Source: Verrucomicrobiota bacterium (GTDB lineage: Bacteria; Verrucomicrobiota; Verrucomicrobiia; Limisphaerales; SIBE01). From it: 42,095 nt of DNA. Within the stretch, counting starts at the first letter, position 1. The number at the start of each line of letters is the position of its first letter. The stretch lies in NCBI GenBank assembly GCA_016871535.1, contig VHCZ01000023.1, positions 1 through 42,095 on the forward strand. Reading direction: 5' to 3'. A program made the translations under genes and the position numbers. Of this stretch, positions 7,383 through 26,068 are shown one piece after another. The notes below the pieces were generated by a model. That model ran no database searches and had not been told where the DNA came from. It worked only from the letters and a program-made list of their open reading frames with translations.

Positions 7383-8189
7383 TCACGGCCGAGTGAAATA
7401 CTCGATTTTCTTCGTTTCGACCGAGGCGCCCCAAATCTTGATGTTGTTCACCTTTCCCGTGTCGTCAAACGAACCGAAACCGATGTGCCCGGCGCCGAAA
7501 GTCTTGTCCTCGGCAACCATGATCGGTTTCGTCAAATCGTCGAAATAGACCTTGATCGAGCCGTCGGAGAGTTTTCGTTCGAGGCGGACTTTGTGCCAGA
7601 CGTTCAGGCCCCAGTTGACGCCTTGGGTGGTTTCTTTGGCGATGTTGGTCCGCGGTTTGTCATTCACGATGAAAATGTTGTGCGCATTGGGGTCGGCCGC
7701 CGTCGCGATGTGCGCGTAGTAAAACTTGCTCGGATCCTTGAACCCGAAGACCAGGACCATGTCGCGGTGCCCGTATTCTCGCCCCGTCTGAACGAGGTCC
7801 GCTTCGAGAATGAAGTCGCCAAAGGCCTTTTCCGCGATCAAGGCGATGTTGAAGGGCGAGCGCACTTTCGGGGTGTATTTGCTTTGCGCGACGAGTTCCA
7901 GCGCGGAGGACTTTTCATCCGCGGAGAACTTCCAGACCTTCGCGTCCGTGAACACGAAATGCTTCAACGCGGATTCGTCCTCGAACGTCTGTTCGTAGAG
8001 AAGTCTGAAGCCGTCGGGCAAAGGGAGTTTGCTCTTCTCGTGGAATACCAGCGCCCCACCGGATCGAGTGGGAGGGAACTGGGCTTTGGGGCCGTCAGCC
8101 GCGGGGGTCTGCGCTGAAGCGCCGGGGGCGCCGAGGAGAAGGAGCCACGTGGAGACGGCGCCGATTGGGAGGGAAGCAATGATGTTCAT
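7383..8189 (-). CDS. Exported ConA-like protein, DUF1080-like
   Basis: A 268-residue protein with an N-terminal signal peptide (cleavage near GASAQT, about residue 27) and one beta-rich domain of concanavalin-A type. Typical strands are FEDESALKHF, FGDFILEADLVQ, DMVLVFGFKDPSKFYYAHIA, WHKVRLERKLSDGSIKVYFDD and GHIGFGSFDDTGKVNNIKIWG. This pattern is shared by DUF1080 domains (3-keto-disaccharide hydrolase) and by laminarinase-like folds. It lies upstream of the dihaem gene and downstream of two sugar-dehydrogenase-like genes on the same strand, which favours action on glycosides outside the cytoplasm. Catalytic residues could not be assigned, so a binding role remains possible. Confidence 0.7.
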   Translation of the reverse strand: MNIIASLPIGAVSTWLLLLGAPGASAQTPAADGPKAQFPPTRSGGALVFHEKSKLPLPDGFRLLYEQTFEDESALKHFVFTDAKVWKFSADEKSSALELVAQSKYTPKVRSPFNIALIAEKAFGDFILEADLVQTGREYGHRDMVLVFGFKDPSKFYYAHIATAADPNAHNIFIVNDKPRTNIAKETTQGVNWGLNVWHKVRLERKLSDGSIKVYFDDLTKPIMVAEDKTFGAGHIGFGSFDDTGKVNNIKIWGASVETKKIEYFTRP

Positions 8190-8247
8190 GACGTGCGAGC
8201 GTTCAGATCGGTTGCCAAAAGTAATTGATTCAGCACTCGTCCCGTTA

Positions 8248-8355
8248 TCTCTCTCTCCCCGCGAGGAACGAGTAGGGAGAGAGTCGGGGAGAGGGGAATT
8301 CTCGACCGAACGCCCTCCCCTGCCCTCTCCTCCTTGCTTGGGAGGAGAGGGAGAA
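8248..8355. repeat. CTCTCCC-type MITE-like element, copy 2
   Basis: Diverged copy: left arm CTCTCTCCCC then GGGAGAGAG (8250-8285), right arm CCCTCTCCTCC paired with GGAGGAGAGGG (8323-8353). It fills most of the gap between the ConA-like gene and the first oxidoreductase and may attenuate read-through. Confidence 0.6.
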
Positions 8356-8376
8356 AAGCGCGATGCATCGCAAGGA

Positions 8377-9810
8377 TCAGACGTTTTCCGGAACGACGAA
8401 CGGCGGACGGTAGTTGTCCTTCAACAATTTGTCGGCTTCAGGATTGTCGATGAACCGCTCGGTTTTGCCGTTCATCCGCAAGAAGGCCCCCAACGAAGCT
8501 CGGGTCTTTTTCAGATCGACGCCATTCGCCGCCAGGTGCTCTTCCATCCGGCCCAGGGTTTCCACGGCGGCTTTGTCCGCCTTGAGCGCCTCGCGGATTT
8601 CCTCCGGGTTCGCCTCTTTGCCCAGGCGATAAGAGATGTTCGAGGTGTGGCAAAGCGCGCTGGAAAGGTGGCCTTCCAGGATGTCCGCGTTGAGATCCGA
8701 AACTTTGCGGCTGCGGACGGCCTTGATGAAATTCTCAAAGTGTCCTTCTTCGCCGCGCCCCATGAAACTGCGGATGACCTGCCCGTCGTTGTCATAAACC
8801 GACGTGCCCGCCAGGTAGCCGCCTTCGCATTCGATCACGTGCCCGACGCTTTGCGTGCGGTATTTGTCCATCTCGCGTTTCCCGGTGCCGGCGGGCAAAC
8901 CGCGGACCTCGAAGATCAGCAGCGCATCGCCATAATCGTGCACGGCAAATTGCGTATTCGGCGTTTCGCCATCATCGGCGTAACCGAGCCGGCCGCCAAC
9001 ACTAAGGATCTTCGGCGAAAGCTCCGGCTTGTTCAGCGCCCAGCGGCAAATGTCCATCTGATGGATGCCCTGATTGCCAATGTCGCCGTTGCCCGTGGCC
9101 CAGACCCAGTGCCAGTCATAGTGCAGGCGGCTGCGCATCAGCGGACCGTTCGGCGCGGGACCGCACCACAGATCGTAATTCACCGAAGGCGGAATCGGCT
9201 GCGGGCCCTCGACTTTCCCGATGCTCGGACGAGGCTTGTAGCAAAGCCCGCGGGCAATCTTGATCTTGCCGATATTGCCCGCGCGCACCCAATCGAGCGC
9301 TTCGCGCAACCCGGCGTTCGAGCGACTTTGCGTGCCGGCCTGGACGATGCGCTTGTATTTGCGAGCCGCCTCGACGGCCTTCCGGCCTTCCCAGACGCAG
9401 TGCGAGATGGGTTTTTCCACATAGACGTCTTTGCCGGCCTGGCACGCCCAGATCGTGATCAAGCCATGCCAATGATTCGGCGTGGCGGTGCTGATAACGT
9501 CGATGTTCTTGCTTTCGAGCAGGCGGCGGACATCGATGTGGGCTTCGATGGTCTGGCCTTTCTTTTGCAGACGTTGCGCGGAGGCGTCCAATACTTTGCT
9601 GTCCACGTCGCAAAGCCCGGTCAGGCGCACGCCCGGAATATTGGAGAACCCGCTGATATGACTGCCTCCCCGCCCATTGAAGCCAACGACCGCCACGCGG
9701 ATGTCTTCGTTTGCGCCCAGGACATTATTCCACGAACGCGCCGAAAGGCTCAGGGCGCCGGTGGTGATGAGGGAGGATTTGATGAAACGACGACGAGACA
9801 GTGTTTTCAT
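8377..9810 (-). CDS. Tat-exported Gfo/Idh/MocA oxidoreductase 1
   Basis: A 477-residue NAD(P)-dependent sugar or cyclitol dehydrogenase-like protein. The chosen ATG at 9810 has GGAG seven bases upstream (CTGGAGATAATCAA) and starts a twin-arginine signal (LSRRRFIKSS..). An upstream in-frame extension to 9894 reads into repeat DNA and is rejected. The Rossmann turn is VAVVGFNGRGGSH near residue 40, and the conserved EKP of the substrate/cofactor cleft appears in VEKPISH. The C-terminal half is the usual alpha/beta domain (NYDLWCGPAP, DWHWVWATGNGDIGNQGIHQMD). With Tat export the nucleotide would have to travel bound. Its paralogue lies at 10072-11520. Confidence 0.9.
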   Translation of the reverse strand: MKTLSRRRFIKSSLITTGALSLSARSWNNVLGANEDIRVAVVGFNGRGGSHISGFSNIPGVRLTGLCDVDSKVLDASAQRLQKKGQTIEAHIDVRRLLESKNIDVISTATPNHWHGLITIWACQAGKDVYVEKPISHCVWEGRKAVEAARKYKRIVQAGTQSRSNAGLREALDWVRAGNIGKIKIARGLCYKPRPSIGKVEGPQPIPPSVNYDLWCGPAPNGPLMRSRLHYDWHWVWATGNGDIGNQGIHQMDICRWALNKPELSPKILSVGGRLGYADDGETPNTQFAVHDYGDALLIFEVRGLPAGTGKREMDKYRTQSVGHVIECEGGYLAGTSVYDNDGQVIRSFMGRGEEGHFENFIKAVRSRKVSDLNADILEGHLSSALCHTSNISYRLGKEANPEEIREALKADKAAVETLGRMEEHLAANGVDLKKTRASLGAFLRMNGKTERFIDNPEADKLLKDNYRPPFVVPENV

Positions 9811-9886
9811 TTGATTATCTCCAGGTTTGTGTTTTCGGATCAGGCTCAGAAACTTGGTTCCGCTGCGTTTGGATTGAGCAACCTTT

Positions 9887-10022
9887 CCCCTCACCCTGGC
9901 CCTCTCCCCAAGGAGAGGGAATCCCGATCTCCACGCCTCGCAGAATGCCAGCGGGCTTCTTCTGCGCCACCGCGCAATTCGATACCCCCTCTCCCCAAGG
10001 GAGAGGGTTGGGGTGAGGGGAA
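9887..10022. repeat. CTCTCCC-type MITE-like element, copy 3
   Basis: The best-formed copy. The left end CCCCTCACCCTGGCCCTCTC is the inverted equivalent of the right end GAGAGGGTTGGGGTGAGGGG. Each end also folds on itself (CCCTCTCCCC-AAGG-GAGAGGG). The middle, about 60 bp, has no coding content. It sits between the two tandem oxidoreductase genes. Confidence 0.75.
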
Positions 10023-10071
10023 CGAGACGCCCGATGGAGAACGCGCAATCATTCGTGAGGGCGACGCTCGG

Positions 10072-11520
10072 CTAAACGATTTCAGGCACAACGTAAGGCC
10101 GGCGATAGTGGCGCGTGAGCAGGGCGTCGGCTTCCCGGCTGTTGGTGAATCGCTCCGCCTTCGGGTCCATGGTCAAGAACTCGCCGAAGGTGAGTTTGTC
10201 GTGATTGAGATCCACCTCGTTCGCCTTGAGGTGCTCGACCATTCGGCCAAATGTTTCCAGCGCGGCGCTGTTGCTTTTGAGTTTCTCGCGGACTTCGTCC
10301 GGGGATTTCTTGGCTCCCAGCCGATAGGACACGTTGCCGGTGTGGCAAAGCGAGCTCGACAAGTAGCCTTCGAGGATATCGGCGTTCAAATCAGTGTGCT
10401 TCCGGGAGCGGCACGCTTTGATGAAGTTGTCGTAGTGGTCGGTCGAGCCGCTCCACCGTTTGATTTCTTTGCCGTCCTTGTCGTAAGCAATCGCGCTGTT
10501 GTAATTCGGACTCACGACATAACCGCCTTCGTAGTGCACGATCGCCGCCACCCGCCCGCCCATGAACGTGTCCATGTTCCTGGAACCGCTCTTTTCCGGC
10601 AAACCGCGCACCTCGAAAATCAGCGGCGCCTTCGGGTAATCATGGAATACGACCTGAGTATTCGGCGTCTCCGCGTCGTCCTGGTAACCGAGCCGGCCGC
10701 CAAAACTGAAAACGCGCGGGGACAATTCCGACACGCCAAGGAACCAGCGGGCGCGGTCCATTTCGTGAATGCCCTGGTTGCCGAGATCGCCGCAGCCGTA
10801 GGCCCAAAACCAATGCCAGTCGTAGTGCAGGCGCTTGCGCCGGAGCGGATCGACGGGCGCCGGGCCGCACCAGAGATCGTAATTGATTTCGTCCGGTATT
10901 GTCTGCGGGCCTTCGGTTTTTCCGATGCTCCCACGTGGCTTGTAACAGAGACCGCGAGCCACAAGGATTTTGCCCAGGTTCCCGGCTTGAACCCAATCGA
11001 CTGCCTCTCGGATACCGTGGCTGGACCGGCTCTGCGTGCCGGTTTGGACGATCTTTTGATACTTGCGCGCCGCCTGCACCATCTGGCGGCCTTCCCAAAC
11101 ATTATGGCAAACGGGTTTCTCGACGTACACGTCTTTGCCCGCCTGCACAGCCCAGATCGTCGCCAGCGCGTGCCAGTGGTTCGGCGTCGCCGTCGTGATG
11201 ACATCAATATCTTTTCGCTCGAGCAATTTCCGGATGTCTGTGAATCCGTCGGCCACGTTGCCTTCCTTGTTGAGCGAACCCAGCCCTCGGCTCAGAACAG
11301 TTTGGTCCACGTCGCACAGCGCAACGATGCGAACCTGCTTGTCCTTCAGCTTACGCATGCCGTTGATGTGGTCCCCGCCGCGCCCGCCAAAGCCGACCAC
11401 GGCCACGCGAATGGTTTCGCTGGAACCGGGGACTTGAGACCAGGAACGGGCGGAAAAACTGAGCGTGGTGGCGGTGAACAGGGAACTTTTCAGGAAGGAG
11501 CGACGCGTAAGATGTTTCAT
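10072..11520 (-). CDS. Tat-exported Gfo/Idh/MocA oxidoreductase 2
   Basis: A 482-residue paralogue of the downstream oxidoreductase, closely similar throughout (for example VAVVGFGGRGGDH, VEKPVCHNVWEGRQMV, TGTQSRSSHGIREAVDW, NYDLWCGPAPVDPLRR). It begins with a twin-arginine signal (LTRRSFLKSS). ATG at 11520 is preferred; a TTG nine bases upstream is possible, and neither has a strong Shine-Dalgarno. Tandem copies separated by a mobile-type repeat suggest duplication followed by divergence, perhaps towards different sugars or a forward/reverse pair. Which hydroxyl is oxidised cannot be read from the sequence. Confidence 0.9.
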   Translation of the reverse strand: MKHLTRRSFLKSSLFTATTLSFSARSWSQVPGSSETIRVAVVGFGGRGGDHINGMRKLKDKQVRIVALCDVDQTVLSRGLGSLNKEGNVADGFTDIRKLLERKDIDVITTATPNHWHALATIWAVQAGKDVYVEKPVCHNVWEGRQMVQAARKYQKIVQTGTQSRSSHGIREAVDWVQAGNLGKILVARGLCYKPRGSIGKTEGPQTIPDEINYDLWCGPAPVDPLRRKRLHYDWHWFWAYGCGDLGNQGIHEMDRARWFLGVSELSPRVFSFGGRLGYQDDAETPNTQVVFHDYPKAPLIFEVRGLPEKSGSRNMDTFMGGRVAAIVHYEGGYVVSPNYNSAIAYDKDGKEIKRWSGSTDHYDNFIKACRSRKHTDLNADILEGYLSSSLCHTGNVSYRLGAKKSPDEVREKLKSNSAALETFGRMVEHLKANEVDLNHDKLTFGEFLTMDPKAERFTNSREADALLTRHYRRPYVVPEIV

Positions 11521-11579
11521 GGTTTTCAATTTGGTTCGTAGTTAATGGACGACTGACGAATTAAATTCATTGCTTCAAA

Positions 11580-11702
11580 GTAGGGCAGGCTTCCAGCCTG
11601 CCCAGAAATTCAATCCAGATGAACCGTTGCAACAATCTGCTTCATGAACCAAAATCGATTGGCTTCTGCGGAAGCGAGAAGGAGGCAGGATGCCTGCCCT
11701 AC
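11580..11702. repeat. Inverted pair of GTAG palindromes (BIME-like)
   Basis: Plus-strand unit: GTAG (11580-11583) runs into the palindrome GGCAGGCTTCCAGCCTGCC (11584-11602). Inverted unit: GGCAGGATGCCTGCC (11684-11698), then CTAC (11699-11702). A roughly 80-bp spacer lies between them. A GTAG tetranucleotide 5' of an imperfect hairpin is the hallmark of REP sequences recognised by RAYT (TnpA-REP) proteins. The right unit contributes the TAG stop codon of the PmoA-family gene. Confidence 0.8.
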
Positions 11703-12736
11703 TTTTGGGCGACCTTCGTTCGCGCGTATTCCTCGTACTGTTCGGCAACTTTCCCGTGCTTCTCGTCGCCTTCGTGGAAGTAGATGCGATACCGGAACGT
11801 CACGCTCTGGCCTTCCGGAAGAACCAGGTTGCCGGCCTTTCTGTCGGGCAGACTCTCGAAATCGTGGCGGCCAAAGGCATTCGCGGCAAATAATCCGTAA
11901 TCGCGCACGTGCCACCAGGTCGGATGCCGCGGATTCTGTGGGTGATCGAAGATGGCGACGCCGACCACCTTGCCATCGACCGGCCCATAGTAATCGCACC
12001 ACTTGGCGCGTTTGCCCCAGGTCTGGCCGTCGCGCACGCCTTCGCTGTTGACGATGCGGCCTTCGCCAGGACGGCTTTTCTTTTCACCTTTGGCCGGCGG
12101 TTTCGTCAGGCGCATCGACTCGTTCAGACGGAGTGCCATCGTCCCCTCCTTCGTGTCACCAAACGTCACGTCGCTCTCAGAGGCGTGAATCGTCACCTCG
12201 AAGTCCATCATCCGGTCGTGAGCGCGATTGTAGATCCGCATCGTGCGATCTTCAGTGCAAACCATTTTTCCATCGACCGCGACCAGTTTGTTTTGAGTCC
12301 GGATCACACCCACATCCTGCCCGGATTTGATTTCCGTAAAAGCAACATGAACGGTCTTGCCTGACTTGGCGCTCTCGGCCCAGAAGTCATGGCCATTGAT
12401 GTCGCCGTGAGCGTACCAAAGAGAGCGGTGATGCGGATGATCGTGCGCTTCGCCTTCAACATCCTTCATTGGCCAATTGCGCGTCATGGGCACGCCACCG
12501 GGGCCGATCACAGGATAAAAAAACGGCCTGGACACTTCTTTGCCGCCATACGCTTTGGAGTGGTATTCGGAGAAGAGCTGGCCGCCGACTTTGATGACGA
12601 GCTTGCCGTCCTGCTCCGTGATCTGGACGCCTCCCGGTTTGCTTTCCGCCGCGTTGGCTCCGACAGCACCCACACCTGCCAGAAGCGAAATGACAAAGGC
12701 AATTGAAGGACGATGGAATTTGGCCAGTGGTTTCAT
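11699..12736 (-). CDS. PmoA-family exported protein
   Basis: A 345-residue protein of the PmoA family (methane oxygenase PmoA, PF14100), which despite its name is a family of unknown function common in verrucomicrobia and planctomycetes. A signal peptide (residues 1-29, cleavage near ANAAES) predicts export. Family blocks: FFYPVIGPGGVPMTRNWP, DHPHHRSLWYAHGDINGHDFW, and the C-terminal VAIFDHPQNPRHPTWWHVRDYGLFAANAFG. The conserved His-rich DHPHHRS resembles a metal or sugar-binding site, but that is inference. It follows the oxidoreductase pair on the same strand and may belong to the same sugar locus. The last three codons are A-Q-K, and the TAG stop lies in a REP-like hairpin, so the native C-terminus may have been altered. 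Confidence 0.85.
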   Translation of the reverse strand: MKPLAKFHRPSIAFVISLLAGVGAVGANAAESKPGGVQITEQDGKLVIKVGGQLFSEYHSKAYGGKEVSRPFFYPVIGPGGVPMTRNWPMKDVEGEAHDHPHHRSLWYAHGDINGHDFWAESAKSGKTVHVAFTEIKSGQDVGVIRTQNKLVAVDGKMVCTEDRTMRIYNRAHDRMMDFEVTIHASESDVTFGDTKEGTMALRLNESMRLTKPPAKGEKKSRPGEGRIVNSEGVRDGQTWGKRAKWCDYYGPVDGKVVGVAIFDHPQNPRHPTWWHVRDYGLFAANAFGRHDFESLPDRKAGNLVLPEGQSVTFRYRIYFHEGDEKHGKVAEQYEEYARTKVAQK

Positions 12737-13319: not shown

Positions 13320-14783
13320 TTACGCGATCGCCTTCTTGATCACCTCACCCGCCACATCCGTCAGCCGTTCGTCGCGGCCATTGTGGCGGAAAGTCAGGCG
13401 CGTGTGATCGAGTCCGAGCAGGTGCAAGAGAGTGGCGTGAATGTCGTGAACGTGAGTTTTCTCCTGCTCGGCGCGCAGGCCTACGGCATCGGTCGCGCCG
13501 ATGACCCGTCCGCCTTTGACGCCGGCGCCGGCCAGCCACATGCAGAAGCCGTGGGGATTATGATCGCGGCCGTCCGAACCCTCACTCATCGGCATCCGGC
13601 CAAATTCTCCGCCCCAGACGACGAGGGTGGAGTCCAGCAGCCCGCGCGACTTCAAATCTTTCAGCAAACCGGCGATGGGCAAATCACTTTGAGCGCAAAG
13701 TTTGGCGTGATTGTCTTCCACAGCGGAATGGCCGTCCCAGCCGTTGGTGTCGCCGCAGTAAAGTTGCACGAACCGCACGCCGCGCTCGATCATGCGCCGC
13801 GCCAGCAGGCAGCGGAGGCCAAATTCGGCGGTCGTTTTGTTGTCCAGGCCGTAAAGTTTCTTCGTGGCTTCGCTCTCACTCGAAACATTGACGACGTCCG
13901 GCGCGTGGGCCTGCATGCGAAACGCCAGTTCGTACGCCGAAATGCGCGCCGCTAACTCCGATTGCTCTTCCCCGGCCCTCAGGTCTTCGCGGTTGAGCCG
14001 GTTGATGAAATCGACCGTGGCTTGCTGCTGTGCCGCGCTGATTCCTTTCGGGGTATTGAGGTGCAGAATAGGCGATTCGCCGCCGCGCAAAATCGTGCCT
14101 TGATAAACGGCGGGCATGTAGCCGTTGCCCCAGGCGGGCGCGCCGCCTTTGACCCACCCGCTCGGATCGGGCATGACCACAAACGCGGGCATGTTCTGAT
14201 TTTCAGTGCCCAATCCATAAGTCGCCCACGCGCCCAGGCTCGGTCGCCCCATCAGAATCGATCCCGTGTTCATCAAATAGACAGACTCCGGATGCGTGAC
14301 GCTGTCGCCATAGCAACCGCGCAAGAGGCAAATGTCATCCACGCAGCCGGCGATGTGGGGCAGAAAATCCGAGACATCCATTCCGCATTGGCCGTGCTTT
14401 CGGAACGGACGAACCGGCGCCATGAGTTTGTTCTTCGCCACCGCGCGGCGCGTCTTGAACGTGCCGAACGATTCCGGAATCGGCTGGCCCGCGAGGCGAA
14501 TCAAGTCCGGCTTCAGGTCGAACAAATCGACCTGGCTCGGCCCGCCGGACATGAACAGAAAAATGACGCTCTTGGCTTTGGTCGGGAAATGCGGCGGCTT
14601 AGGGAGCAAAGGATTGACCGGCGTTACGCGGCCCGCCGGCGTGTCGCCTGCCAGCAAACCGTCGGCATCCAGCAAGGAAGTCAGCGCCAGCATCCCGAAT
14701 CCGCAGCCGCTGCGCCGCAGGAATTCGCGGCGTGAGGTGGGCCTGGTTTCGGGTCCGTTCGGTCCCGTGCAATGGCAGCTCAT
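13320..14783 (-). CDS. DUF1501 family Tat-exported protein 1
   Basis: A 487-residue member of DUF1501, related to the sulfatase/alkaline phosphatase superfamily. The ATG at 14783 places a twin-arginine signal (SRREFLRRSG) near residue 20; a longer frame to 14951 reads into the upstream repeat. Characteristic blocks are SVIFLFMSGGPSQVDLFDLKPDL, GGEFGRMPMSEGSDGRDHNPHGF and VHDIHATLLHLLGLDH. The HDIHATLLHLLG block resembles metal-binding ends of sulfatases, but enzymatic activity is unproven. It lies 466 bp downstream of a DUF1549/DUF1553 gene on the same strand, the standard pair for this family. Confidence 0.9.
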   Translation of the reverse strand: MSCHCTGPNGPETRPTSRREFLRRSGCGFGMLALTSLLDADGLLAGDTPAGRVTPVNPLLPKPPHFPTKAKSVIFLFMSGGPSQVDLFDLKPDLIRLAGQPIPESFGTFKTRRAVAKNKLMAPVRPFRKHGQCGMDVSDFLPHIAGCVDDICLLRGCYGDSVTHPESVYLMNTGSILMGRPSLGAWATYGLGTENQNMPAFVVMPDPSGWVKGGAPAWGNGYMPAVYQGTILRGGESPILHLNTPKGISAAQQQATVDFINRLNREDLRAGEEQSELAARISAYELAFRMQAHAPDVVNVSSESEATKKLYGLDNKTTAEFGLRCLLARRMIERGVRFVQLYCGDTNGWDGHSAVEDNHAKLCAQSDLPIAGLLKDLKSRGLLDSTLVVWGGEFGRMPMSEGSDGRDHNPHGFCMWLAGAGVKGGRVIGATDAVGLRAEQEKTHVHDIHATLLHLLGLDHTRLTFRHNGRDERLTDVAGEVIKKAIA

Positions 14784-15249
14784 GGCTTTGAGGAAGAATA
14801 CACCTTTCCGGCGAAGAGAACAGAAGGAAAAATGGTGAGAGCGGTAACGAAAATGAACTGGTTGCGATGGATTGCGCTCGTGTCGGCGCTTCATTAGCAC
14901 TCCGCTCCATACGTGTTTAGCGTGGTAGGGACGGATTCCACTCCGTCCCAAATCAAGCCGCGAGGCAGACCGCCGCCCAGGAAGAGACGATGGATCAACG
15001 GAGGCTCCTGGTTTTTCCGTTGTCCGTCTGTCCCTTCAAGAGACGCCCCAAGGATTAGTCAGGGACCACCAGGGATATTCTCCTTCGTCGCGCCTGAGCC
15101 CAAATGCGATGCAACAAAGTGTATTCTATCCCACGGTCTGATCAGTACACCCCGCTGAAGCGGAGTGTTATTAATAATGAGACGAACCGAAGAGGTAATC
15201 TGTCGTTCCGAGTTCGAGATGGTCCAGGCTGGTTAGGATTCCGGTCTCG
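14784..15249. repeat. Repeat-filled spacer with GTAG palindrome
   Basis: GTAG (14925-14928) precedes GGACGGATTCCACTCCGTCC. The following 110 bp, to about 15058, are close to those after 1726, including GGAGGCTCCTGGTTTTTCC. The inverted partner present at 1840 is degraded here. Part of the stretch 15078-15130 resembles 50-115. The last 100 bases before the DUF1553 stop codon show nothing recognisable. No gene is supported in these 466 bases, although the flanking genes are the two halves of a conserved pair. Confidence 0.7.
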
Positions 15250-17454
15250 CTAATCCACGTACACGAACGCATTCAAGTTGAACAGCGCGCGGCACAGCTC
15301 GCTCAACGGCGCATTCTGCAAGAATGAGCCGGCTATTGCTTGCTCCTTCTCCGAAGGCCCGCGCCCCAGAATCAATCGATAGGCCAGCGTGACGCGCGCC
15401 GCATTCGTGCCGGCTTCACTCGTCAGGCGCGCCGCGGTGACCTCGCTGGCGGTCATCACTTCGTCCGCGTTGAGCAAGGTCAGCGATTGCGGCGCGGACG
15501 TGCTGCGCGGGCGATCGGGACAGGTCAAGTTGCTGTCCGGTGCATCGAACACTTCGAGAAAGGGAAACCGCAAGTTGCGCCGCGCAAAGATGTAGATGCT
15601 GCGGCGATTGTGCTCGGCGGCGTTCTTGCTCACAGTCCAACCTCTCGATCCTTTGAACACGTCCTCAGGAATGGCCGGAAAAACTCCCGGCCCGCCGATC
15701 TGTCGATTCAATTCTCTGCTGATCGCAAGCAAACTGTCGCGGATGACTTCGCCTTCGAGCCGCTTCCGCTGCCAGCGCGAGTAAAGCCGATTTTCCGGAT
15801 CGCGCTCAAGCGCCTCTTCCGAGGCCCGACTCGACTGCTGATAAACCGATGAAAGCAGCAAGAATTTGTGCATCTCCTTGACGCTCCAGCCTCGCGCCAC
15901 GAATTCGCTCGCCAGCCAATCCAGCAATTCCGGATGCGACGGACGTTCGCCTTTCAAACCGAAGTCGCTCGGAGTCGGCACAAGACCGCGTCCGAAATGA
16001 TGTTGCCAGATGCGGTTGACCATGACGCGGGCGGTGAGCGGGTTGTTGGGGCTTGCGATCCATTCCGCGAGCGTGGTCCTCAGAATTGCGGTCGCACGGT
16101 GAGCACTCTGCTCTCCAATTTGAAATTTGAGATTTGAAATTTGAGATTCGCCCAGCACGGCCGGAAATCCCGGCTGCACCTCGTCGCTGGGCCGGTTGTA
16201 GTCGCCCCGCGCCAAAATGAAGGTCTTCGCGAGTTTCCCTTTGGCCTTCTGCAGAGCCATCGTCATCGGCAAAGGCGAGGGCTTCGGATATTTGGCCAGC
16301 GCCTCCTTGGCAGTTTTATGGCGTGCTCGGTCCTCCTTGCTCATGGCGTTGAGCATCTCCTTTTCCATGACTTCGACGAGAGCCGCGGTTTCTTGGATTT
16401 GGTTGACCTGCTCGGTCGTGCGTTCGGCGGGAGGAGTCTTGTGCGCCGCCTGCGCTTCGGGCGAAAGTTTGGCCAGCTTTTGCTCAAAAATCTTTTGGCG
16501 ATACGGCGCTTCGATCGCCGCGATTTCTTCCTGCTCCTTAAGAGTCAGTTGACTGTATTTCAGGAGCGCGGACTGGTGCGCGGCTAACTCCTCGCGCCGG
16601 GGCGCCGGTAGATCGTCGCGGAAAGTGGCTGGGGTGAAAAACGCTTGAAAGCGGTAGTAATCTTTCTGGGAAAGCGGCTCGAATTTGTGGTCGTGGCAGC
16701 GCGCGCAACCCATCGTCAAACCCAGGAATGCCGAAGCCGCCGTGTCCGTCATGTCGTTGAGCCGGTTGAGCCGGCGCTGAATCTGGTCCGCTGAATCCAC
16801 CATGTCCGGTCCCAAAAGATTGAACGCGGTCGCGATCAACGCTTCGGGTTCGTCCGGATACAACTCGTCGCCCGCGAGTTGTTCCTTGATGAACCGATCG
16901 TACGGCTTGTCGGCATTGAACGATTGCACGACATAGTCGCGATAGCGCCAGGCGTGAAACCGAACGGCGTCATGCTCGAAGCCGTCCGTCTCGGCGAATC
17001 GCGCCACGTCAAGCCAATGCCGTCCCCAGCGCTCGCCATAGTGCGGCGACGCCAGCAACCGATCGATCAGGTTCGCGTACGCGTCCGTTGAAGTGTCTTT
17101 CGAGAACGCATCGATTTCGCTCAGCGTGGGCGGCAGTCCGATCAGATCAAAGGTGGCGCGGCGGATCAGTTCCTCCTTGGTCGCCGATGTGGCTGGCGGA
17201 ACGCCCTTCGCTTCCAACAACGCCAGGATGAAATGATCCACAGGCGTCTTGAGCCCGCGAGTGTCTTTGACCGCCGGGGGTGCAATGCGGTTGACCGGCT
17301 GGAATGCCCAATGCGTGCGAGCGCTGGTTGCGAAAGGGACTTCAGTGACACGAGCATTCTGGTCAGCCTCTTCCGGGGCAGGATCTGCCGAAGCAGGCCC
17401 GCGAATCGCTATCACGACGAAGGCGCAGAGGATCAAGGCGTGAACTGCCTGCAT
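15250..17454 (-). CDS. DUF1549/DUF1553 surface-cytochrome-type protein 1
   Basis: A 734-residue exported protein. The ATG at 17454 starts a signal peptide ([25 protein letters not shown]); a longer frame to 17511 is rejected because it puts charged residues before the signal. DUF1549 covers about 70-290 ([37 protein letters not shown]) and contains a haem motif CARCH (Cys250, Cys253, His254). DUF1553 covers about 460-720 ([25 protein letters not shown]). The N-terminal PSCyt1 cytochrome domain common in longer members is missing. Between the two, [12 protein letters not shown] is encoded by an AT-rich repeat insertion. Partner of the DUF1501 gene at 13320-14783. Confidence 0.9.
16115..16149. 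repeat. In-frame AT-rich repeat inside DUF1553 gene
   Basis: Alternating AATTTGAAATTTGAG / ATTTGAAATTTGAG units, about 2.5 copies, are strikingly AT-rich against the surrounding GC-rich code. On the coding strand they give QISNLKFQI just before the DUF1553 domain. The segment keeps the frame and sits in an interdomain linker, so it is probably tolerated. Confidence 0.7.
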
Positions 17455-17560
17455 GGTTATATTCTTGGCCTCTCCCGTGCGTTCGGTCAACTCGTCATGG
17501 CGCTTTCCCATACCGGACTTGCTTACGCTCAGTTTACTCTGTTACCTCCTGTTTGAAACC
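17455..17560. promoter_or_regulatory. Divergent intergenic promoter region
   Basis: The 106 bp between the start codons of the minus-strand DUF1553 gene and the plus-strand dehydratase must carry both promoters unless one is transcribed from farther away. I see no clear -35/-10 pairs or operator palindrome, and neither start has a good Shine-Dalgarno. Shared control of the two genes is possible but unproven. Confidence 0.35.
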
Positions 17561-19507
17561 ATGAGCGTCACCGACAAATCATCCGCAAGTCCGGAAGACA
17601 TCTATTGCGTTCAAACCAAAGCGCCCGGGCCGGCCGGCGCGTTGCCGCTGACCGAAGAAATGCTTCTGAATCGTCCCAGCGGCGACATTTTCGGCCTGAG
17701 CCAGAACGCGGGCATGGGGTGGGACCCGCGCGAACTCGGCCGCAAACAATTCTTGATTCTCAGCACGCAAGGCGGAGTGCGCGCGCCGGATGGCCGGCCC
17801 ATCGCGCTGGGTTATCACACCGGCCATTGGGAAGTCGGCTTGCTCGTGCAGGCGGCGGCGAATGAACTTCGCGCGTTGAAAACCCTCCCGTTCGCCGCGT
17901 TTTGCTCCGACCCGTGCGATGGTCGCACCCAAGGCACGCCGGGGATGTTCGACAGCTTGCCGTATCGCAACGACGCCGCGCAAATCTTTCGCCGTTTGAT
18001 TCGTTCGCTCCCGACTCGCTCCGGCGTCATGGGCGTCGCGACGTGCGACAAAGGGCTTCCGGCCATGATGATGGCGTTAGCGTCCATGCACAACCTGCCC
18101 GGGGTCCTCGTCCCTGGAGGCGTGACGTTGCCGCCTTCGGATGGTGAAGATGCCGGAGCGGTGCAAACGATTGGCGCGCGCTTCAGCCACGGCCTGCTTT
18201 CACTTGAGCAAGCCGCGGAACTCGGCTGCCGGGCTTGCGCTTCGCCAGGCGGCGGCTGCCAATTTCTGGGCACGGCCGCAACCTCGCAAGTGGTCGCCGA
18301 AGCGCTCGGTATCGCGGTGCCGCATTCCGCTCTGGCTCCATCCGGGCAACCCGTCTGGACGGATGCGGCAGTCCGTTCGGCGCGCGCGGTCACGCTTTTG
18401 GAAGAACGCGGAATCCGCATGCGCGACGTTCTGACCGACGCCAGCATCCGCAACGCCATGGCCGTGCACGCCGCGGTGGGCGGTTCGACGAATCTGCTCC
18501 TGCACATCCCGGCCATTGCGCACGCGGCCGGTTTGCGCCGCCCGACGGTCGATGACTGGATCGCGGTCAATCGCCGCGTCCCCCGGATTGTCGATGTCCT
18601 GCCGAATGGGCCGAGGAATCATCCCACGCTTCGGGTCTTTCTCGCCGGCGGCGTGCCGGAAGTCATGTTGCACTTGCGGCATCTGGGAATTCTCGAAACA
18701 AACGTGCTCACCGTGGCGGGAAAATCTCTGGGCGAAGTTCTGGATGAATGGGAGAAATCCGAGCGGCGGCAGCGATTCAAGGAAATCCTCACACGCGAAG
18801 ACGGCGTCAACGCCGACGATGTCATAATGCCGCCGGACCAGGCGCGGGCCAAGGGCTTGACCAGCACGATCACTTTCCCGCGCGGCAACCTCGCGCCGGA
18901 AGGAGCGGTTATCAAGAGCACGGCCATTGATCCAAGCGTGGTCGATCACGACGGCGTCTATCGCAAGGAGGGGCCGGCGCGGGTCTTTGTGAGCGAAAAA
19001 GAGGCGATGGCCGCGATCAAAGCAGGCCGCCTCCAGGCCGGAGATGTCATGGTGTTGATCGGCTGCGGGCCAATGGGGACCGGGATGGAGGAAACCTATC
19101 AACTCACGTCTGCGCTCAAGCATTTGCCGTTTGGCAAGCACGTGGCGCTGATCACGGATGCGCGGTTCTCCGGCGTTTCCACCGGCGCTTGCATTGGTCA
19201 TGTCGGCCCTGAAGCGCTGGCAGGCGGGCCGATGGGCAAGCTGCGCGACGGCGATTGGATCCGAATCGTGATTGATCGCACTCGCCTGGAGGGTAGCGTA
19301 GATTTCGTCGGCGAAGCGGACCGGCGCTTCGAGCCGGAAGTCGCCGCGAAGATTCTCCACGAACGACCGCCACACGATCGGCTCGCGCCAAATCCAGCTT
19401 TGCCCGATGATACGAGGCTCTGGGCGGCGCTCCAGCAAATCGGCGGCGGCACCTGGGGCGGCTGTATTTATGACGTGGAGGGGATTCTGGAGCGCGTAGC
19501 CAGGTGA
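17561..19507 (+). CDS. yjhG: YjhG/YagF-type D-xylonate dehydratase
   Basis: A 648-residue member of the IlvD/Edd dehydratase superfamily, closest by motif to the YjhG/YagF branch that converts D-xylonate to 2-keto-3-deoxy-xylonate. Diagnostic blocks are [25 protein letters not shown] (about 21-45), [22 protein letters not shown] and [11 protein letters not shown] (115-125). Likely iron-sulfur cluster cysteines lie in CSDPC, CDKG (162-165) and GGGCQFLGT (Cys233). ATG at 17561 matches the family N-terminus; the frame open further upstream is not homologous. A cytoplasmic aldonate dehydratase beside sugar-oxidising exported enzymes supports an oxidative, non-phosphorylative sugar route. Other aldonates cannot be excluded as substrates. 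Confidence 0.9.
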
Positions 19508-20885: not shown

Positions 20886-22394
20886 TTACGCCAGAATCTC
20901 CTGAATTACCCGCCCGTGCACGTCGGTGAGCCGGCGGTCAATGCCATTGTGCCGGAAGGTCAGTTTCTCGTGATCGATGCCAAGGAGGTGCAGGATCGTC
21001 GCGTGGATATCATAGACCTGCGTGGGATCGCTTCGGTCGGCCGGTTTGTAGCCCCATTCATCGCTCGGCCCAAAGCTCAGGCCGCCTCTGACGCCTCCGC
21101 CTGCAAGCCAGTTGGTGAAACAGAACGGATTGTGGTCTCGGCCTTTTCCGCCTTGCGCGCAGGGCATCCGCCCAAATTCCGTCGTCCAGAACACAATCGT
21201 GTCGTCAAGCATCCCACGCTGTTTGAGGTCTTGGATCAAAGCGGAGGCGCCCCGAGCCATGCCGATGGCCAGCGGCCCGTGGTCACGCTGGATGTCTTCG
21301 TGGGAATCCCAATTGCGGCGAGGAAACCCGTTGTCGTTGCCGGACCAGATCTGCACGAAGCGCACGCCTCGTTCGAGCAGCCGCCGGGCGACCAGACATT
21401 TGCGGCCAAAGTAATCGGTCTCTTCGATGGGATTGATTTCTTTGTCGAACGTCTGCCGGCGATGATTCAGCCCGTAGAGGTCGAGGATATAGTCGGGCTC
21501 TTTGGAAATATCCAGGGCTTCGGGCGCGGCCAGTTGCATCCGCGCGGCCAGTTCGTACGAGCGGATGCGGGCGTCCAGGCGCTCGTCTCCGGGGCGCAAA
21601 TCAGCATGCTCGCGGTTCAACCGGGTCATGACCGCCAGAGCATCGGCGTCGCTTTGCTTCGTGATGAAGTCGCCTTGTTTGGCCGGGAACAGGTCTGTGA
21701 TGGGATGGTCCGTGCCCGGCCAGATCGTGGTGCCTGAATGCCGGGAAGGCAGGAAAGCCGAGTGCCAGTTCTTCGGACCGTTCGAGGCGTATCCGCGGTG
21801 GTCAGGCAACACCACGAACGTCGGGAGATTCTCATTCAAACTTCCCAAGGCGTAACTCACCCAGCAACCCATTCCCGGAAATCCGGGCATCTGAAAGCCG
21901 GTGGCTTGCAGATAGGTCGCCTGGCTGTGAACGCCGGTCTTGCCGACGACATTGTGAATGAACGCGAGGTCGTCCACGCAAGAGCGGAGCGCGCTGACGA
22001 TTTCACTGAGGTATTTTCCGGATTGGCCGTATTGCTTCCAACTCCAGGGCGACGCGAAGGTCGCGCCGTGGCCGTTCTGAAACAACTCCACTTTCTCGCC
22101 GGGATCCCAGGGCTGCCCGTGGCGCTTCAGGAGTTCCAGTTTGTAATCGAACGTATCAACGTGGCTGGCCGCGCCGCCCATGAACAATTGAACGACCCGC
22201 CTGGCTCTGGCGGGATAGTGCAGGGCACCCGTGAACACGCCCTCCGCGGCGGTTGGAGCCGCCCGCAGCCGCTCCTGGCCGAGCAAGCAACTCAACGCGA
22301 TGCCTCCGAGCCCTCCGCCGGAAGCCCACAAGAATTCACGGCGAGACATGGGCGGTCGTGGCCGCTCCAGACGATGATAAAGCGAGGTGTTCAT
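20886..22394 (-). CDS. DUF1501 family Tat-exported protein 2
   Basis: A 502-residue DUF1501 protein. The ATG at 22394 is chosen because the signal (SRREFLWASGGGLGGIALSCLLG) then starts near residue 17; the frame is open to 22427 through repeat DNA. Blocks: RRVVQLFMGGAASHVDTFDYKLELL, TTEFGRMPCAQGGKGRDHNPF, VYDIHATILHLLGIDHEKLTFRHNGIDRRL. Compared with the other DUF1501 protein here, it has His in the first block (ASHVDTFD for PSQVDLFD), so the two belong to different subgroups. It follows the DUF1553 gene at 22689-25370 on the same strand, across 294 bp of repeats. Confidence 0.9.
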   Translation of the reverse strand: MNTSLYHRLERPRPPMSRREFLWASGGGLGGIALSCLLGQERLRAAPTAAEGVFTGALHYPARARRVVQLFMGGAASHVDTFDYKLELLKRHGQPWDPGEKVELFQNGHGATFASPWSWKQYGQSGKYLSEIVSALRSCVDDLAFIHNVVGKTGVHSQATYLQATGFQMPGFPGMGCWVSYALGSLNENLPTFVVLPDHRGYASNGPKNWHSAFLPSRHSGTTIWPGTDHPITDLFPAKQGDFITKQSDADALAVMTRLNREHADLRPGDERLDARIRSYELAARMQLAAPEALDISKEPDYILDLYGLNHRRQTFDKEINPIEETDYFGRKCLVARRLLERGVRFVQIWSGNDNGFPRRNWDSHEDIQRDHGPLAIGMARGASALIQDLKQRGMLDDTIVFWTTEFGRMPCAQGGKGRDHNPFCFTNWLAGGGVRGGLSFGPSDEWGYKPADRSDPTQVYDIHATILHLLGIDHEKLTFRHNGIDRRLTDVHGRVIQEILA

Positions 22395-22422
22395 GAACGG
22401 AATTCTTTGGGCTTGTTCTTTG

Positions 22423-22614
22423 ACCACGGATTTCGCGGATTTCGCGGATGAAGAAGCGGTTTATCCGTGTGATCCTTGTAATCCGTGGTTGAATCCGGTT
22501 CGTGGGGAGGGAGCATCGATCGTTGCATTTCGATGGATCGAGCGCACAGAGTTGTTCTCGGTGCGGAATGCCTCTTCCCCTCTCCTTGAGGGAGAGGGAC
22601 AGGGTGAGGGGAAG
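22423..22614. repeat. ACCACGGATT element plus CTCTCCC arm
   Basis: 22423-22489 is an inverted repeat with ends ACCACGGAT and ATCCGTGGT and inner GCGGAT/ATCC repeats; a second, right-truncated copy is at 25913-25960. At 22571-22614 a single CTCTCCC-type arm follows (CCCCTCTCC-TTGA-GGGAGAGG, then GGTGAGGGG). Together they fill most of the gap between two genes that would normally be adjacent. Confidence 0.7.
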
Positions 22615-22688: not shown

Positions 22689-25370
22689 TCAGTCCACGAA
22701 AAGGAATTCGTTCAGGTTCAGGATAACCCGGCAGGTGTTCGCCAATCCATGTTGCTTCGCGTAATGGGCAAGTTCAGTCCGCTCCGGCGCGGACGGACGG
22801 CGTCCAATGGCCAGGCGAAACGCGGATTCGACTTTGTCCGCCAGTTCCCCGCCGGCTTTCTCCACGCGCGCCGCAAAGTGTTTCGCCATCGTCAGCATGA
22901 ACGCGTCGTTCAACAACGCCAGAGCCTGGAGCGCGGAAAGAGTTTCGTTGCGCTTGTCCACCCGCATCGACGGGTCCGCGCAATCGAGCGTCGTCATGAA
23001 CGGTTGCTGCTGCGAGCGGACGATAAACCGGTAAATCGAGCGCCGGTGCGAACGTGGGTCCTCCGGATCGTGCAGGTGATACTGATAGTGCGGAGAGTGC
23101 TCCGGCTTCTCGATCACGAAATCCTGAAAGCTCGGCCCGTAGAGCTTCGGGTCGAGTTTGCCGCTGACGAAGAGCACGCTGTCTCGGAGCGCTTCCGCTT
23201 CCAACCGTCGGCGGTTCATGCGCCAGTAATAAGCGTTGTTTGCATCGGTCTTCGCATGCGATTCGTTGGCCGCGGACACCTGCCGATACGTTGCGCTCGT
23301 GACCAGGAGGCGATGCAATTGCTTGAGCGATTGGCCGTGGTCCCGGAATTCCAGGGCGAGCCAGTCGAGCAACTCCGGATGCGTTGGCATTTGCCCCATG
23401 CGGCCGAAATCATCCGGCGTATCCACGAGGCCGCGTCCGAAGTGATAAAGCCAGACGCGATTGACAATGGACCGCCAGGTGAAGGGATTGCCTGGATCAG
23501 TAATCCATTGAGCCAGGGCCAGGCGCCGCGCGCCTTCGGCGTGTTCGGGCGGGAGATCGAAACGCGCCGGCAAGGCCGCCACAGATTTCAAAGCCCCAGG
23601 ACGCGCCTCCGGGCCCGGATTCTTGACGTCCCCGCGGTTGAGAACATGAATCGGCCGAGGCCTGCCGCCCTCCGGTCCTGTGCCGCGGAACGCGCCGCTG
23701 CCGTAGTGAACTGTGCCCACGAAGGCCAGGTTTGGTTTGGGGAGCCTCGAAATCTCCGCATCCACTTGCGCAAGCAAGGTCGTGACTTCGCTCAGTTCCT
23801 TCTTCGTGTCCGCATCCATCGCTCGATCCAGCAACGCTTGCCGCTCCGTCTGCAATTTGGCCAGCGCTTCGGGATTGGCCTTGGCCTTTGTGTAGGTGTA
23901 GCCATCCACGAGGTTCTTCGTTTGCCATCGAACCGGCGCTTCGATGGCGTCGAGTGCGGTCACCCTTGCGCCCAACGCAGCGTTTTTCCCGTCGGAGTCG
24001 AGCACGCTCAATTCTCCGAGGGCAAAGATGTAATCGTCTTTGCGCGGCGCGAGCTTCGTGGCCGTCACCCGGACATAGCGCGCCGACTTGCCGTGGACGA
24101 TGGCAGTCTGGGGATCGACACCGGGATTGGTGAAGTCGGCCTGCGTGTGATCGACGATTCGAACCGCGCCTGCGCTAAACTCCGCGTCGTCTGAAATCTC
24201 GATCTTGAATCGGACCGGAAAACCAAATCCCTCTCCGATGTTGTTGAAGTCGTCGTGGCAACCAACGTAGATCACTTTGTCGATAACCACCGGACGCCCG
24301 AGATCGACCTGGACCCACTTGATCTGGTCGGGCGTGGCTTCAATCTGGCTATGGTAGCCGAACTCCGGACGCGCCGCGCCACTGGACGCCTTGCGGGCGG
24401 CTTCGATCTTTTTCTCCAGATCAGCCAGTTCGCTCCCGCCAAGTTTCGCGATCTTCTCCTCGAGCGTCTTCTTCTGCTCGGCAAGCGCGCGTTGTCGGGC
24501 TTCCAGATTCGAGCGCTGCCGGGTCAACGAGGGATCGGAATAATACTTGCGATCGGCGCGGTCCAGCGCCGCGAACACCGATTGGAGGCTGTAGTAATCT
24601 TCCTGGGCGATGGGATCGAATTTGTGATCGTGGCATTGGGCGCAATGCACCGTCAAACTCACGAACGTGCCCATGGCGTTCGCGACCATATCGTCGCGGT
24701 CCAGGTGACGCGCGATCTTGCCGTCAATTTTGTCCTCCGGCACTTCCATGTGCCCGATCAAATCCCACGGCCCCGCCGCGATGAATCCCGTGGCCTCGAT
24801 GCCGTCCTCTGTGTCGGGCGCCAGGACGTCGCCGGCGATTTGCTCCTGGACGAAGCGCGCGTAGGGTTTGTCCGCGTTGAACGCGCGAATGACGTAGTCG
24901 CGATAAGGCCAGGCGTTGGGGCGGGGTTTATCTTTGTCGTAACCGTGGGTTTCTCCGTAATGCACCACGTCGAGCCAGTGCCGCGCCCAGCGCTCGCCGT
25001 AGTGTGGAGAAGCCAGCAAGCGATCCACGAGATTCTCGTAAGCCTTGGGATTGGAGTCGGCAAGGAAAACGTCGATTTGTTCCGGCGTCGGCGGCAAACC
25101 GATCAAATCAAAGTAAAGCCGCCGGATCAACGTGCGGCGATCCGCTTCGGGCGACGGCGCGAGACTCTTCTCGTGAAGTTTGGTCAGAATGAACGCGTCG
25201 ATCGGATTGCGAATCCACTTCAAATCCGCGCCGTGGAATGCTGGGACGGCGGGACGTTGAACGGGGCGGAATGACCACCCGTTATTCTGGTTCGCCTTGG
25301 CCGGTTCAGACGTTTGCCCGGCGTGTGCCGGTAAGATTGAGATCAAGGAATGCAAAAGCACGAAGCCCAC
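22689..25370 (-). CDS. DUF1549/DUF1553 protein 2 with discoidin-like insert
   Basis: About 893 residues from a GTG at 25370 that directly precedes a signal peptide (GFVLLHSLISILPAHAG). The frame stays open to 25781, but those 137 codons read through repeat DNA and look non-coding; no ATG is well placed, so the start is uncertain. DUF1549 (about 45-285: [34 protein letters not shown]) carries haem motif CAQCH (Cys243, Cys246, His247). A coiled coil (LEARQRALAEQKKTLEEKI) and an F5/8-type-C-like beta domain (IKWVQVDLGRPVVIDKVIY ... ARYVRVTATKLAP) follow, then DUF1553. The insert suggests carbohydrate or surface binding. Partner of DUF1501 at 20886-22394. Confidence 0.88.
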   Translation of the reverse strand: MGFVLLHSLISILPAHAGQTSEPAKANQNNGWSFRPVQRPAVPAFHGADLKWIRNPIDAFILTKLHEKSLAPSPEADRRTLIRRLYFDLIGLPPTPEQIDVFLADSNPKAYENLVDRLLASPHYGERWARHWLDVVHYGETHGYDKDKPRPNAWPYRDYVIRAFNADKPYARFVQEQIAGDVLAPDTEDGIEATGFIAAGPWDLIGHMEVPEDKIDGKIARHLDRDDMVANAMGTFVSLTVHCAQCHDHKFDPIAQEDYYSLQSVFAALDRADRKYYSDPSLTRQRSNLEARQRALAEQKKTLEEKIAKLGGSELADLEKKIEAARKASSGAARPEFGYHSQIEATPDQIKWVQVDLGRPVVIDKVIYVGCHDDFNNIGEGFGFPVRFKIEISDDAEFSAGAVRIVDHTQADFTNPGVDPQTAIVHGKSARYVRVTATKLAPRKDDYIFALGELSVLDSDGKNAALGARVTALDAIEAPVRWQTKNLVDGYTYTKAKANPEALAKLQTERQALLDRAMDADTKKELSEVTTLLAQVDAEISRLPKPNLAFVGTVHYGSGAFRGTGPEGGRPRPIHVLNRGDVKNPGPEARPGALKSVAALPARFDLPPEHAEGARRLALAQWITDPGNPFTWRSIVNRVWLYHFGRGLVDTPDDFGRMGQMPTHPELLDWLALEFRDHGQSLKQLHRLLVTSATYRQVSAANESHAKTDANNAYYWRMNRRRLEAEALRDSVLFVSGKLDPKLYGPSFQDFVIEKPEHSPHYQYHLHDPEDPRSHRRSIYRFIVRSQQQPFMTTLDCADPSMRVDKRNETLSALQALALLNDAFMLTMAKHFAARVEKAGGELADKVESAFRLAIGRRPSAPERTELAHYAKQHGLANTCRVILNLNEFLFVD

Positions 25371-26068
25371 AGCACGGCGAAGCCGCAACCGAGGGATGGC
25401 TGCAAAAAGGCGCAGAAGGCGCAAAGAAATCCCCGCTTTTGTGCCTTTTTGCGCGTTTTCGCGGCCAACAAAAATTTCTTCGCAGCGTGCGAGCCAGTTG
25501 CGCCATTGCAGGACAAAGCACGCTCTGAGTCGCAGAATGGGGAACCGTGAAGGCCCGCGAAGACCCGCGAATGCGAAAGCTTCCCATGAACCCGGGAGGG
25601 CTGCGTTGCCGCGCAGCCGGTCTTCTGTCGATACGGCGGCGCAACAGCACCGACCTACCGGACGCGTGGACCATGCCCACCGTCGGACGCCCTTGGAGCC
25701 ATTCTGTGAATTCAGGTCAAGATAGCTCGCGCCCCGCGCCGACAAAGCCAAGGCCGCTGGTAGATGCTCCTTCCGCTTCATGAGTCTCCTGTTGCGAAAC
25801 GAAAGGCCATGTGATTCGACGCGCTAAGTAACGTCGTTACTTTGGGACCAACCCGCCGCTTCGTCAACTCCGACCGAATTCCCGGAATTCCCGCGAATTT
25901 TGACCACGGATTTCGCGGATTCCGCGGATCGAGAAGCGATCGTATCCGTGCGATCCGTGCCACAAATTCCACAGGATTTCCACAAGAGCCCACAGCATTC
26001 AATCGCTCGGAAGGCCTTGTCGCTTACTGATCAGACCGTGGGATTGACGACAGATCGACCGGAGAACC
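25371..26068. repeat. Repeat-rich spacer
   Basis: No gene supported. Contents in order: an inverted repeat built from GCAAAAAGGCGCAGAAGG and CTTTTTGCGCG-type strings (25402-25465); a minus-strand REP-like unit whose GTAG is seen as CTAC at 25655-25658 beside GGCGGCGCAACAGCACC, with a second palindrome GGCTGCGTTGCCGCGCAGCC at 25600-25619; and a second ACCACGGATTTCGCGGATT element at 25913-25960. Between 25660 and 25900 nothing is recognised. Confidence 0.65.

Follow-up and report, generated by a model that had tools for sequence, protein, structure and literature searches.

A conserved gene unit of exported dehydrogenase, ConA-fold and DUF6807 proteins in Verrucomicrobiota and other phyla, and its possible part in glycoside oxidation

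The four-gene locus and its proteins

Four genes for exported proteins lie side by side at positions 7383-12736 of a contig from a Verrucomicrobiota bacterium of the order Limisphaerales (assembly GCA_016871535.1, contig VHCZ01000023.1). The whole stretch of 42,095 nucleotides that was analysed, here termed the window, takes up this contig (C23) from end to end; the genome measures 6.67 Mb. In the order of transcription the genes encode a DUF6807 protein (11699..12736), two Gfo/Idh/MocA dehydrogenases with motifs of the twin-arginine translocation (Tat) type, DH2 (10072..11529) and DH1 (8377..9894), and a protein with a concanavalin A-like (ConA) fold from an unnamed family (7383..8189), separated by gaps of 169, 177 and 187 bp. 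The locus had been read as a verrucomicrobial version of a pathway that cleaves 3-keto-glycosides outside the cytoplasm, and the layout given in this original prediction was borne out, all four open reading frames (ORFs) being confirmed on the minus strand. The N-termini of the ConA and DUF6807 proteins are, judged by eye, ordinary signal-peptide-like stretches. The three gaps (8190-8376, 9895-10071 and 11530-11698) contain palindromic repeats rich in CT/GA (CCCTCTCC...GGGGAGAGG) as well as GGCAGGC...GCCTGCC inverted repeats, which resemble repetitive extragenic palindromic (REP) elements or miniature inverted-repeat transposable elements (MITEs).

DH1 and DH2 each score above cut-off with PF01408 and with PF19051 and carry a twin-arginine motif close to the likely start (SRRRFI in DH1, TRRSFL in DH2), which upholds their earlier description as two Tat-type Gfo/Idh/MocA enzymes; the likely start of DH1 is the ATG at 9810, and the Pfam TAT_signal model scores 13.3 bits on this protein, under its cut-off of 22.7. 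The closest solved relatives of both enzymes are 8tdf and 8tdh at E 1e-30 to 1e-32 (8tdf: DH1 1e-30, DH2 9e-32), followed at no more than half the score by DgpA-type, putative and inositol-type dehydrogenases. We take 8tdf to be the Bacteroides glycoside 3-dehydrogenase BT2158, as the NCBIfam BT_2158 model is the best match of DH1 and DH2. Besides the PF01408 Rossmann domain, two hallmarks of the superfamily, the lysine of the EKP motif and a His column at the active site, are conserved across those ConA-linked members that were aligned. In a tree of 55 rows, 26 ConA-linked dehydrogenases form one clade (96/93), which the dehydrogenases of loci L040 and L057 adjoin (93/89); BT2158 falls in a separate clade (100/100) together with other dehydrogenases of the window's own genome, some of which adjoin DUF1080 or DUF6807 genes. 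A tree of 63 rows, from which 10 dehydrogenase rows were omitted (3 long-branch, 7 near-duplicates), places dehydrogenases sampled from DUF6807 in the ConA-linked clade as well (38 rows, 100/99), except for the BT2158-type neighbour L198_13495. Judged by these trees, the window-type dehydrogenases are a clade of their own, apart from BT2158.

The predicted ConA-like fold of the 7383..8189 product is confirmed by an AlphaFold2 model (predicted local distance difference test score, pLDDT, of 94.6), which is a ConA sandwich, and by structure searches. Its top Foldseek match is the carbohydrate-binding module CBM66 (E 4.5e-8), followed by thrombospondin domains and by DUF1080 proteins (9fbe, a structure with 2-hydroxy-3-keto-glucal, 8rr2, 8tda and 3osd, all at E 4e-6 to 2e-5); the VIA Z scores are 17.9 for galactocerebrosidase, 17.6 for CBM66 and 15.6 for both 9fbe and 4jqt. 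The original prediction had also called this protein one of DUF1080 type, and this part failed. The protein matches no Pfam family above cut-off, no PF06439 (DUF1080) profile up to E 0.1 and no NCBIfam model up to E 0.01; the PF06439 profile has 39 matches in the genome and none on this contig. At the position of the invariant Glu of DUF1080, on its ExQ strand, the ConA family has YAH instead, with an hhalign register uncertain by one residue and an ExQ pattern drawn from an alignment of seven DUF1080 members of the same genome rather than from published catalytic residues. The lack of the DUF1080 catalytic residues had been named beforehand as a finding that would refute the prediction, and to the letter it is what we found. 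Membership of DUF1080 was therefore rejected. A more distant kinship is seen in weak PF06439 matches of 6 of 16 ConA family members (best 2.4e-8) and a profile-profile probability of 87%, which make the family a remote cousin of DUF1080; that the two are distinct follows from L105 and L120, where both domains stand in tandem.

Among 100 ConA sequences, W86, P112, Y158, H160, V175, G234, G239 and D243 (protein numbering) are invariant, and R110 (96%), D143 (99%), D166 (99%) and R180 (94%) nearly so; a GSFDD motif stands near the end. This set kept 100 of 101 sequences, L057 being too short; the ConA alignment compared with DUF1080 (A1) held 16 of 21 sequences, and the DUF1080 alignment (A4) covered 7 of 8 loci, with L004 left out. 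By its profile and conserved columns, the 7383..8189 product is a member of a distinct family of ConA fold, marked by near-invariant polar residues of its own.

The 11699..12736 product matches PF14100 (DUF6807) at 237.8 bits against a cut-off of 27 (E 2e-70). This family was once annotated as PmoA or methane oxygenase, so that the earlier label of a PmoA-family exported protein holds for the family name and not for homology to methane monooxygenase: DUF6807 is the one family that Pfam assigns, and the predicted structure (pLDDT 85.2) is a soluble super-sandwich, not a membrane-bound PmoA, on which grounds the methane oxygenase assignment was rejected. The modelled fold resembles galactose mutarotase and polysaccharide lyases of families PL26 and PL4, which are rhamnogalacturonan lyases, with VIA Z of 15-19 (17-19 against the PL26 lyase and mutarotases), and sequence search found no convincing solved relative. 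HDHPHH and HPTWWH motifs are present in DUF6807. Our DUF6807 alignment (A3) holds 13 of the 15 printed sequences, with 23 listed. Of 141 genomes of the class, 56 carry the family. In the window's genome it has five matches, three of them (on contigs C23, C39 and C266) near a PF19051 dehydrogenase; in C39 and C266 that neighbour is BT2158-like. The C266 cluster (L163 3312-7001), a second DUF6807 cluster of this genome and closer to the Bacteroides type, combines a BT2158-like Tat dehydrogenase (433 of the 750 bits needed for the BT_2158 equivalog model NF058561), DUF6807 and a TIM-barrel sugar isomerase-like protein.

Conservation of the gene unit

A scan of a genome collection returned at least 538 relatives of the ConA protein, of which 80 were fetched with their loci; neighbouring genes were called with a home-made hexamer gene finder, whose starts are approximate and which missed the ConA gene itself in several loci. 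A window-type dehydrogenase (at least 520 bits) lies directly upstream of ConA on the same strand in 22 of the 80, from Verrucomicrobiota, Planctomycetota and Acidobacteriota, with two unplaced. DUF6807 is encoded no more than 10 kb away in every one of these 22, and in 5 of the remaining 58 (L068, L070, L073, L076 and L080; several of these loci end at contig ends). The order DUF6807-DH2-DH1-ConA is identical in L058 and L059, the two closest relatives of the window among those fetched, and two dehydrogenases occur only in these loci and the window; the other 20 of the 22 have one, including the verrucomicrobial L060, L061 and L063, and in the remaining 17 DUF6807 is on the opposite strand. 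The stop of the dehydrogenase overlaps the start of ConA by 1-4 bp in L098, L107, L114 and L135, by the starts of our gene caller.

When the number of loci with a given gene near ConA (within 3 kb; 438 kb of flank) is set against that farther away (3-10 kb; 783 kb), the dehydrogenase stands at 22 to 1 and DUF6807 at 21 to 6, followed by a cupin (15 to 3), sulfatases (14 to 7), HEAT/DUF7133 proteins (8 to 0), GMC oxidoreductases (5 to 5), SDR proteins (5 to 4), other Gfo proteins (4 to 5), ThuA (3 to 0), SGL (3 to 0), TIM barrels (3 to 1), DUF1080 (2 to 2), DUF1501 (2 to 5), YjhG-like proteins (1 to 1) and aldose epimerase (0 to 1). Domain fusions link the same partners: ConA is fused with DUF6807 in L076 (a gap-free frame) and L080 (a frame spanning a stretch of N), L070 encodes a DUF6807-SGL-ConA protein with the SGL domain in between, and a ThuA (trehalose utilisation) domain precedes ConA in L087, L095 and L096, from Acidobacteriota and Aminicenantes.

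Sampling from DUF6807 gave an independent view. Besides the window's own, 17 of 29 DUF6807 loci have a window-type dehydrogenase directly beside DUF6807 (20 loci were widened, the 17 and three without the dehydrogenase; in L200, L201 and L209 a DUF6807 motif found no DUF6807 gene among the gene-finder calls). The third place in these 17 varies: ConA follows in L213, a double DUF1080 precedes in L202 and L206, and a Tat-type AP_endonuc_2 TIM barrel follows in L204. On these counts the steady core is DUF6807 plus dehydrogenase, to which ConA is added as one third member among several, and the sampling places DUF1080 and the ConA family in the same position beside the same dehydrogenase clade. 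A GHMP kinase with a galactokinase signature follows the pair in L205 (12034-13353, by Pfam) and, by eye, in L199, L210 and L211, which hints at galactosides as substrates.

A conserved module of exported dehydrogenase, ConA and DUF6807 is thus well supported. Calling it a verrucomicrobial version was right as far as Verrucomicrobiota go and too narrow, as the unit is also found in Planctomycetota and Acidobacteriota; in the literature searched it is not described. In a ConA tree of 100 rows the linkage to the dehydrogenase is scattered over separate branches (Verrucomicrobiota; Planctomycetota with Acidobacteriota; L040), for which an old pairing with later losses would be the simplest account and repeated gain the other. 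That common gene families of the Planctomycetes-Verrucomicrobia-Chlamydiae (PVC) bacteria became neighbours by chance, as the 38 PF19051 and 39 PF06439 matches of this genome might suggest, is virtually eliminated by the near and far counts around ConA, the 17 of 29 DUF6807 loci, the rarity of DUF6807 (3 of its 5 genes beside a PF19051 dehydrogenase) and an order conserved across three phyla.

Two further genes recur beside ConA. The 15 loci counted above under cupin encode a protein that looks cupin-like by eye, is about 315 residues long and falls into no family of Pfam or NCBIfam (e.g. L072 8959-9906; Bacteroidota, Planctomycetota, Acidobacteriota), and the HEAT/DUF7133 protein adjoins ConA in its eight loci, mostly of Bacteroidota. 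The GMC oxidoreductases, e.g. L135 14897-16585, are related to the large subunits of fructose and glucose dehydrogenases.

A possible oxidative route and its rivals

We propose that the unit acts as an extracytoplasmic module which may cleave or remodel glycosides through oxidation of the sugar, most likely at C3, with a bound NAD that would recycle itself; on the sequences and predicted folds at hand we hold this to be evenly balanced. The dehydrogenase would fold in the cytoplasm around bound NAD(P) before export by the Tat system, and would then oxidise a glycoside at its C3 hydroxyl. The ConA protein, or elsewhere DUF1080 or a TIM barrel, would help the resulting 3-keto sugar to shed its aglycone, DUF6807 might act on the released or anomeric sugar, and the same dehydrogenase would reduce the 3-keto product and so regain NAD. 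Passage through the Tat system points to a cofactor in bound form, glucose-fructose oxidoreductase (GFOR) being a Tat-exported enzyme with bound NADP, and the single dehydrogenase in 20 of 22 loci makes a one-enzyme cycle of oxidation, cleavage and reduction possible. Being redox neutral, such a cycle would need no haem electron sink. The earlier reading of the locus thus keeps its outline, with a conserved unit, glycoside 3-dehydrogenases as nearest solved relatives and DUF1080, ThuA and exported TIM barrels among the third or fused partners, and loses the assignment of ConA to PF06439. The genes, their export motifs, the conserved linkage and the fusions are observed and the folds predicted, whereas bound NAD, attack at C3, cleavage by ConA and the part of DUF6807 are inferred.

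Several findings weigh against this proposal. DH1 and DH2 score 121 and 151 bits on NF058561, whose cut-off is 750 (other dehydrogenases of the genome: C266 433, C9 321, C22 303, C39 289), and both lie outside the BT2158 clade in the two trees, where BT2158 is represented by a fragment of about 216 residues. The dehydrogenase is missing in 58 of the 80 ConA loci, an initial sample of 20 loci of the phylum had high-scoring dehydrogenase neighbours in two (L040 and L057), a finding against the linkage that is to be weighed with the larger samples, and in 13 of the 17 dehydrogenase-DUF6807 pairs no ConA, DUF1080 or TIM barrel was recognised close by. The best structural matches of the ConA model, CBM66 and the lectin domain of galactocerebrosidase, are binding modules that rank above 3-keto hydratases, so that the ConA protein may bind and not cleave. 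DUF1080 also includes an ordinary endo-glucanase, named as an endo-xanthanase in two papers (PMC9007349, PMC10881899), and the company of DUF1080 by itself does not fix 3-keto chemistry. Finally, 3 of the 80 loci encode an SGL lactonase domain no more than 3 kb from ConA, which better suits oxidation at C1.

Oxidation at C1 is the basis of the main rival account, a GFOR-like periplasmic route in which DUF6807 would serve as mutarotase, the dehydrogenase would oxidise the aldose to a lactone, a lactonase would open it, the aldonate would reach the dehydratase YjhG after uptake by a tripartite ATP-independent periplasmic (TRAP) transporter, and ConA would bind sugar. It draws on the SGL/gluconolactonase domain that shares a frame with DUF6807 in L070, L097 and L100, on the mutarotase-like fold of DUF6807 and the aldose 1-epimerase of L063, on the YjhG and TRAP genes of the window, and on the Tat export of GFOR with its cofactor. 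Yet DH2 scores 27 bits with GFOR against 113 with 8tdf, Pfam found no lactonase among the 20 larger window ORFs scanned, a true YjhG is near ConA in one of 80 loci, and the DUF1080 and ThuA fusions would be left unexplained; we consider this account unlikely. The probabilities that we attach to the C3, C1 and binding-only accounts refer to readings that partly overlap.

Equally improbable to us is that the ConA protein is a binding partner only, with cleavage by DUF6807 as a lyase of mutarotase fold or by an enzyme encoded elsewhere. The ranking of CBM66 and lectin domains as top structural neighbours agrees with it, as does DUF6807, which resembles the PL26/PL4 super-sandwich and accompanies the dehydrogenase more regularly than ConA does. 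According to PMC5342196, lactose use is restored by a cosmid of Verrucomicrobia on which genes for two proteins reported as beta-galactosidases flank a PF14100 gene, possibly in one operon, one of the two being of the TIGR02604-HEAT-cytochrome type; our literature search found no paper on DUF6807 function, and this is the one printed link to glycoside cleavage that it gave. The HEAT/DUF7133 neighbours of ConA are possibly built like that enzyme. Against binding only, seven near-invariant polar residues of ConA, one His and three Asp among them, look catalytic or very specific, and DUF1080 fills the third place in two loci.

Far less probable is that ConA is a bona fide DUF1080 3-keto-glycoside hydrolase. 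The fold is the same, the structures of BT2157, BT2 and 3-keto eliminases/hydratases match at E of about 1e-5, and the weak profile matches noted above point the same way, but the window protein lacks both the PF06439 match and the Glu, and the two domains stand side by side in L105 and L120.

The boldest form of our C3 proposal, which we regard as tentative and somewhat doubtful, is that the ConA protein stands for a new class of enzymes that cleave 3-keto-glycosides, with a predicted R110/D143/Y158/H160/R180/D243 site, and works in the periplasm with a Tat-exported dehydrogenase of self-recycling NAD and a catalytic DUF6807, the three together oxidising, cleaving and reducing with neither free cofactor nor electron sink. 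If the C3 proposal is right, it would give a function to DUF6807 and to the unnamed ConA-fold family with its many relatives, and would explain how NAD chemistry reaches glycosides outside the cytoplasm in PVC and other bacteria.

Other window genes and comparison with known systems

The neighbouring haem proteins had been suggested as electron sinks and YjhG as the enzyme for aldonate products, and neither was retained as part of the unit. PSCyt1 is near ConA in none and far in three of the 80 loci, and PSCyt2 near in two and far in seven, and on these counts a haem electron sink was rejected. The PSCyt2 and DUF1501 genes upstream are also found in L058, the closest relative, not in L059; downstream of ConA the window has PSCyt1 and DUF1552 genes, of which L058 has no homologues within 10 kb. 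The annotation of YjhG itself stands, 17453-19507 encoding a YjhG/YagF xylonate dehydratase (TIGR03432, 1171 bits, cut-off 808); its membership of the unit was rejected, a true YjhG lying within 10 kb of ConA in L103 alone of the 80 loci, with the flank of L058 ending inside PSCyt2. Elsewhere the window has two pairs of DUF1501 and PSCyt2/PSD1 genes (13320-14951 with 15250-17511; 20886-22427 with 22689-25781, the second pair with an F5/8 type C domain), an AAA_14 + DUF4143 ATPase (26881-28155) between the YjhG region and the TRAP genes, and the TRAP transporter itself at 28217-32367, with a fused DctQ-DctM (PF06808, PF04290), DctP and the T-component TAtT (PF16811).

Among known proteins, CBM66 of Bacillus levanase (4b1m, 4azz), a binding module within an enzyme, shares the fold of the window's ConA model as its closest Foldseek match at about 18% identity, and galactose mutarotase and PL26 share the predicted super-sandwich of the DUF6807 protein at about 8-11%. 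Among pathways, the Caulobacter LacABC dehydrogenase, of the GMC (glucose-methanol-choline) type, is membrane-bound, whereas the dehydrogenases encoded in the window are of Gfo/Idh/MocA type and carry a Tat motif. Oxidation followed by cleavage outside the cytoplasm is proposed for both, PMC9007349 giving LacABC with DUF1080 and a periplasmic hydrolysis of 3'-ketolactose for Caulobacter. The Bacteroides BT2156-BT2160 pathway (structures 8tdf, 8tda and 3osd) likewise has a Gfo/Idh/MocA dehydrogenase, BT2158, beside an exported ConA-fold protein, the DUF1080 member BT2157, a 3-ketotrehalose hydrolase according to the same paper (PMC9007349). The window differs from it in that no TIM barrel was found beside its genes, its dehydrogenases belong to another clade, its ConA protein stands outside PF06439, and a DUF6807 protein is present.

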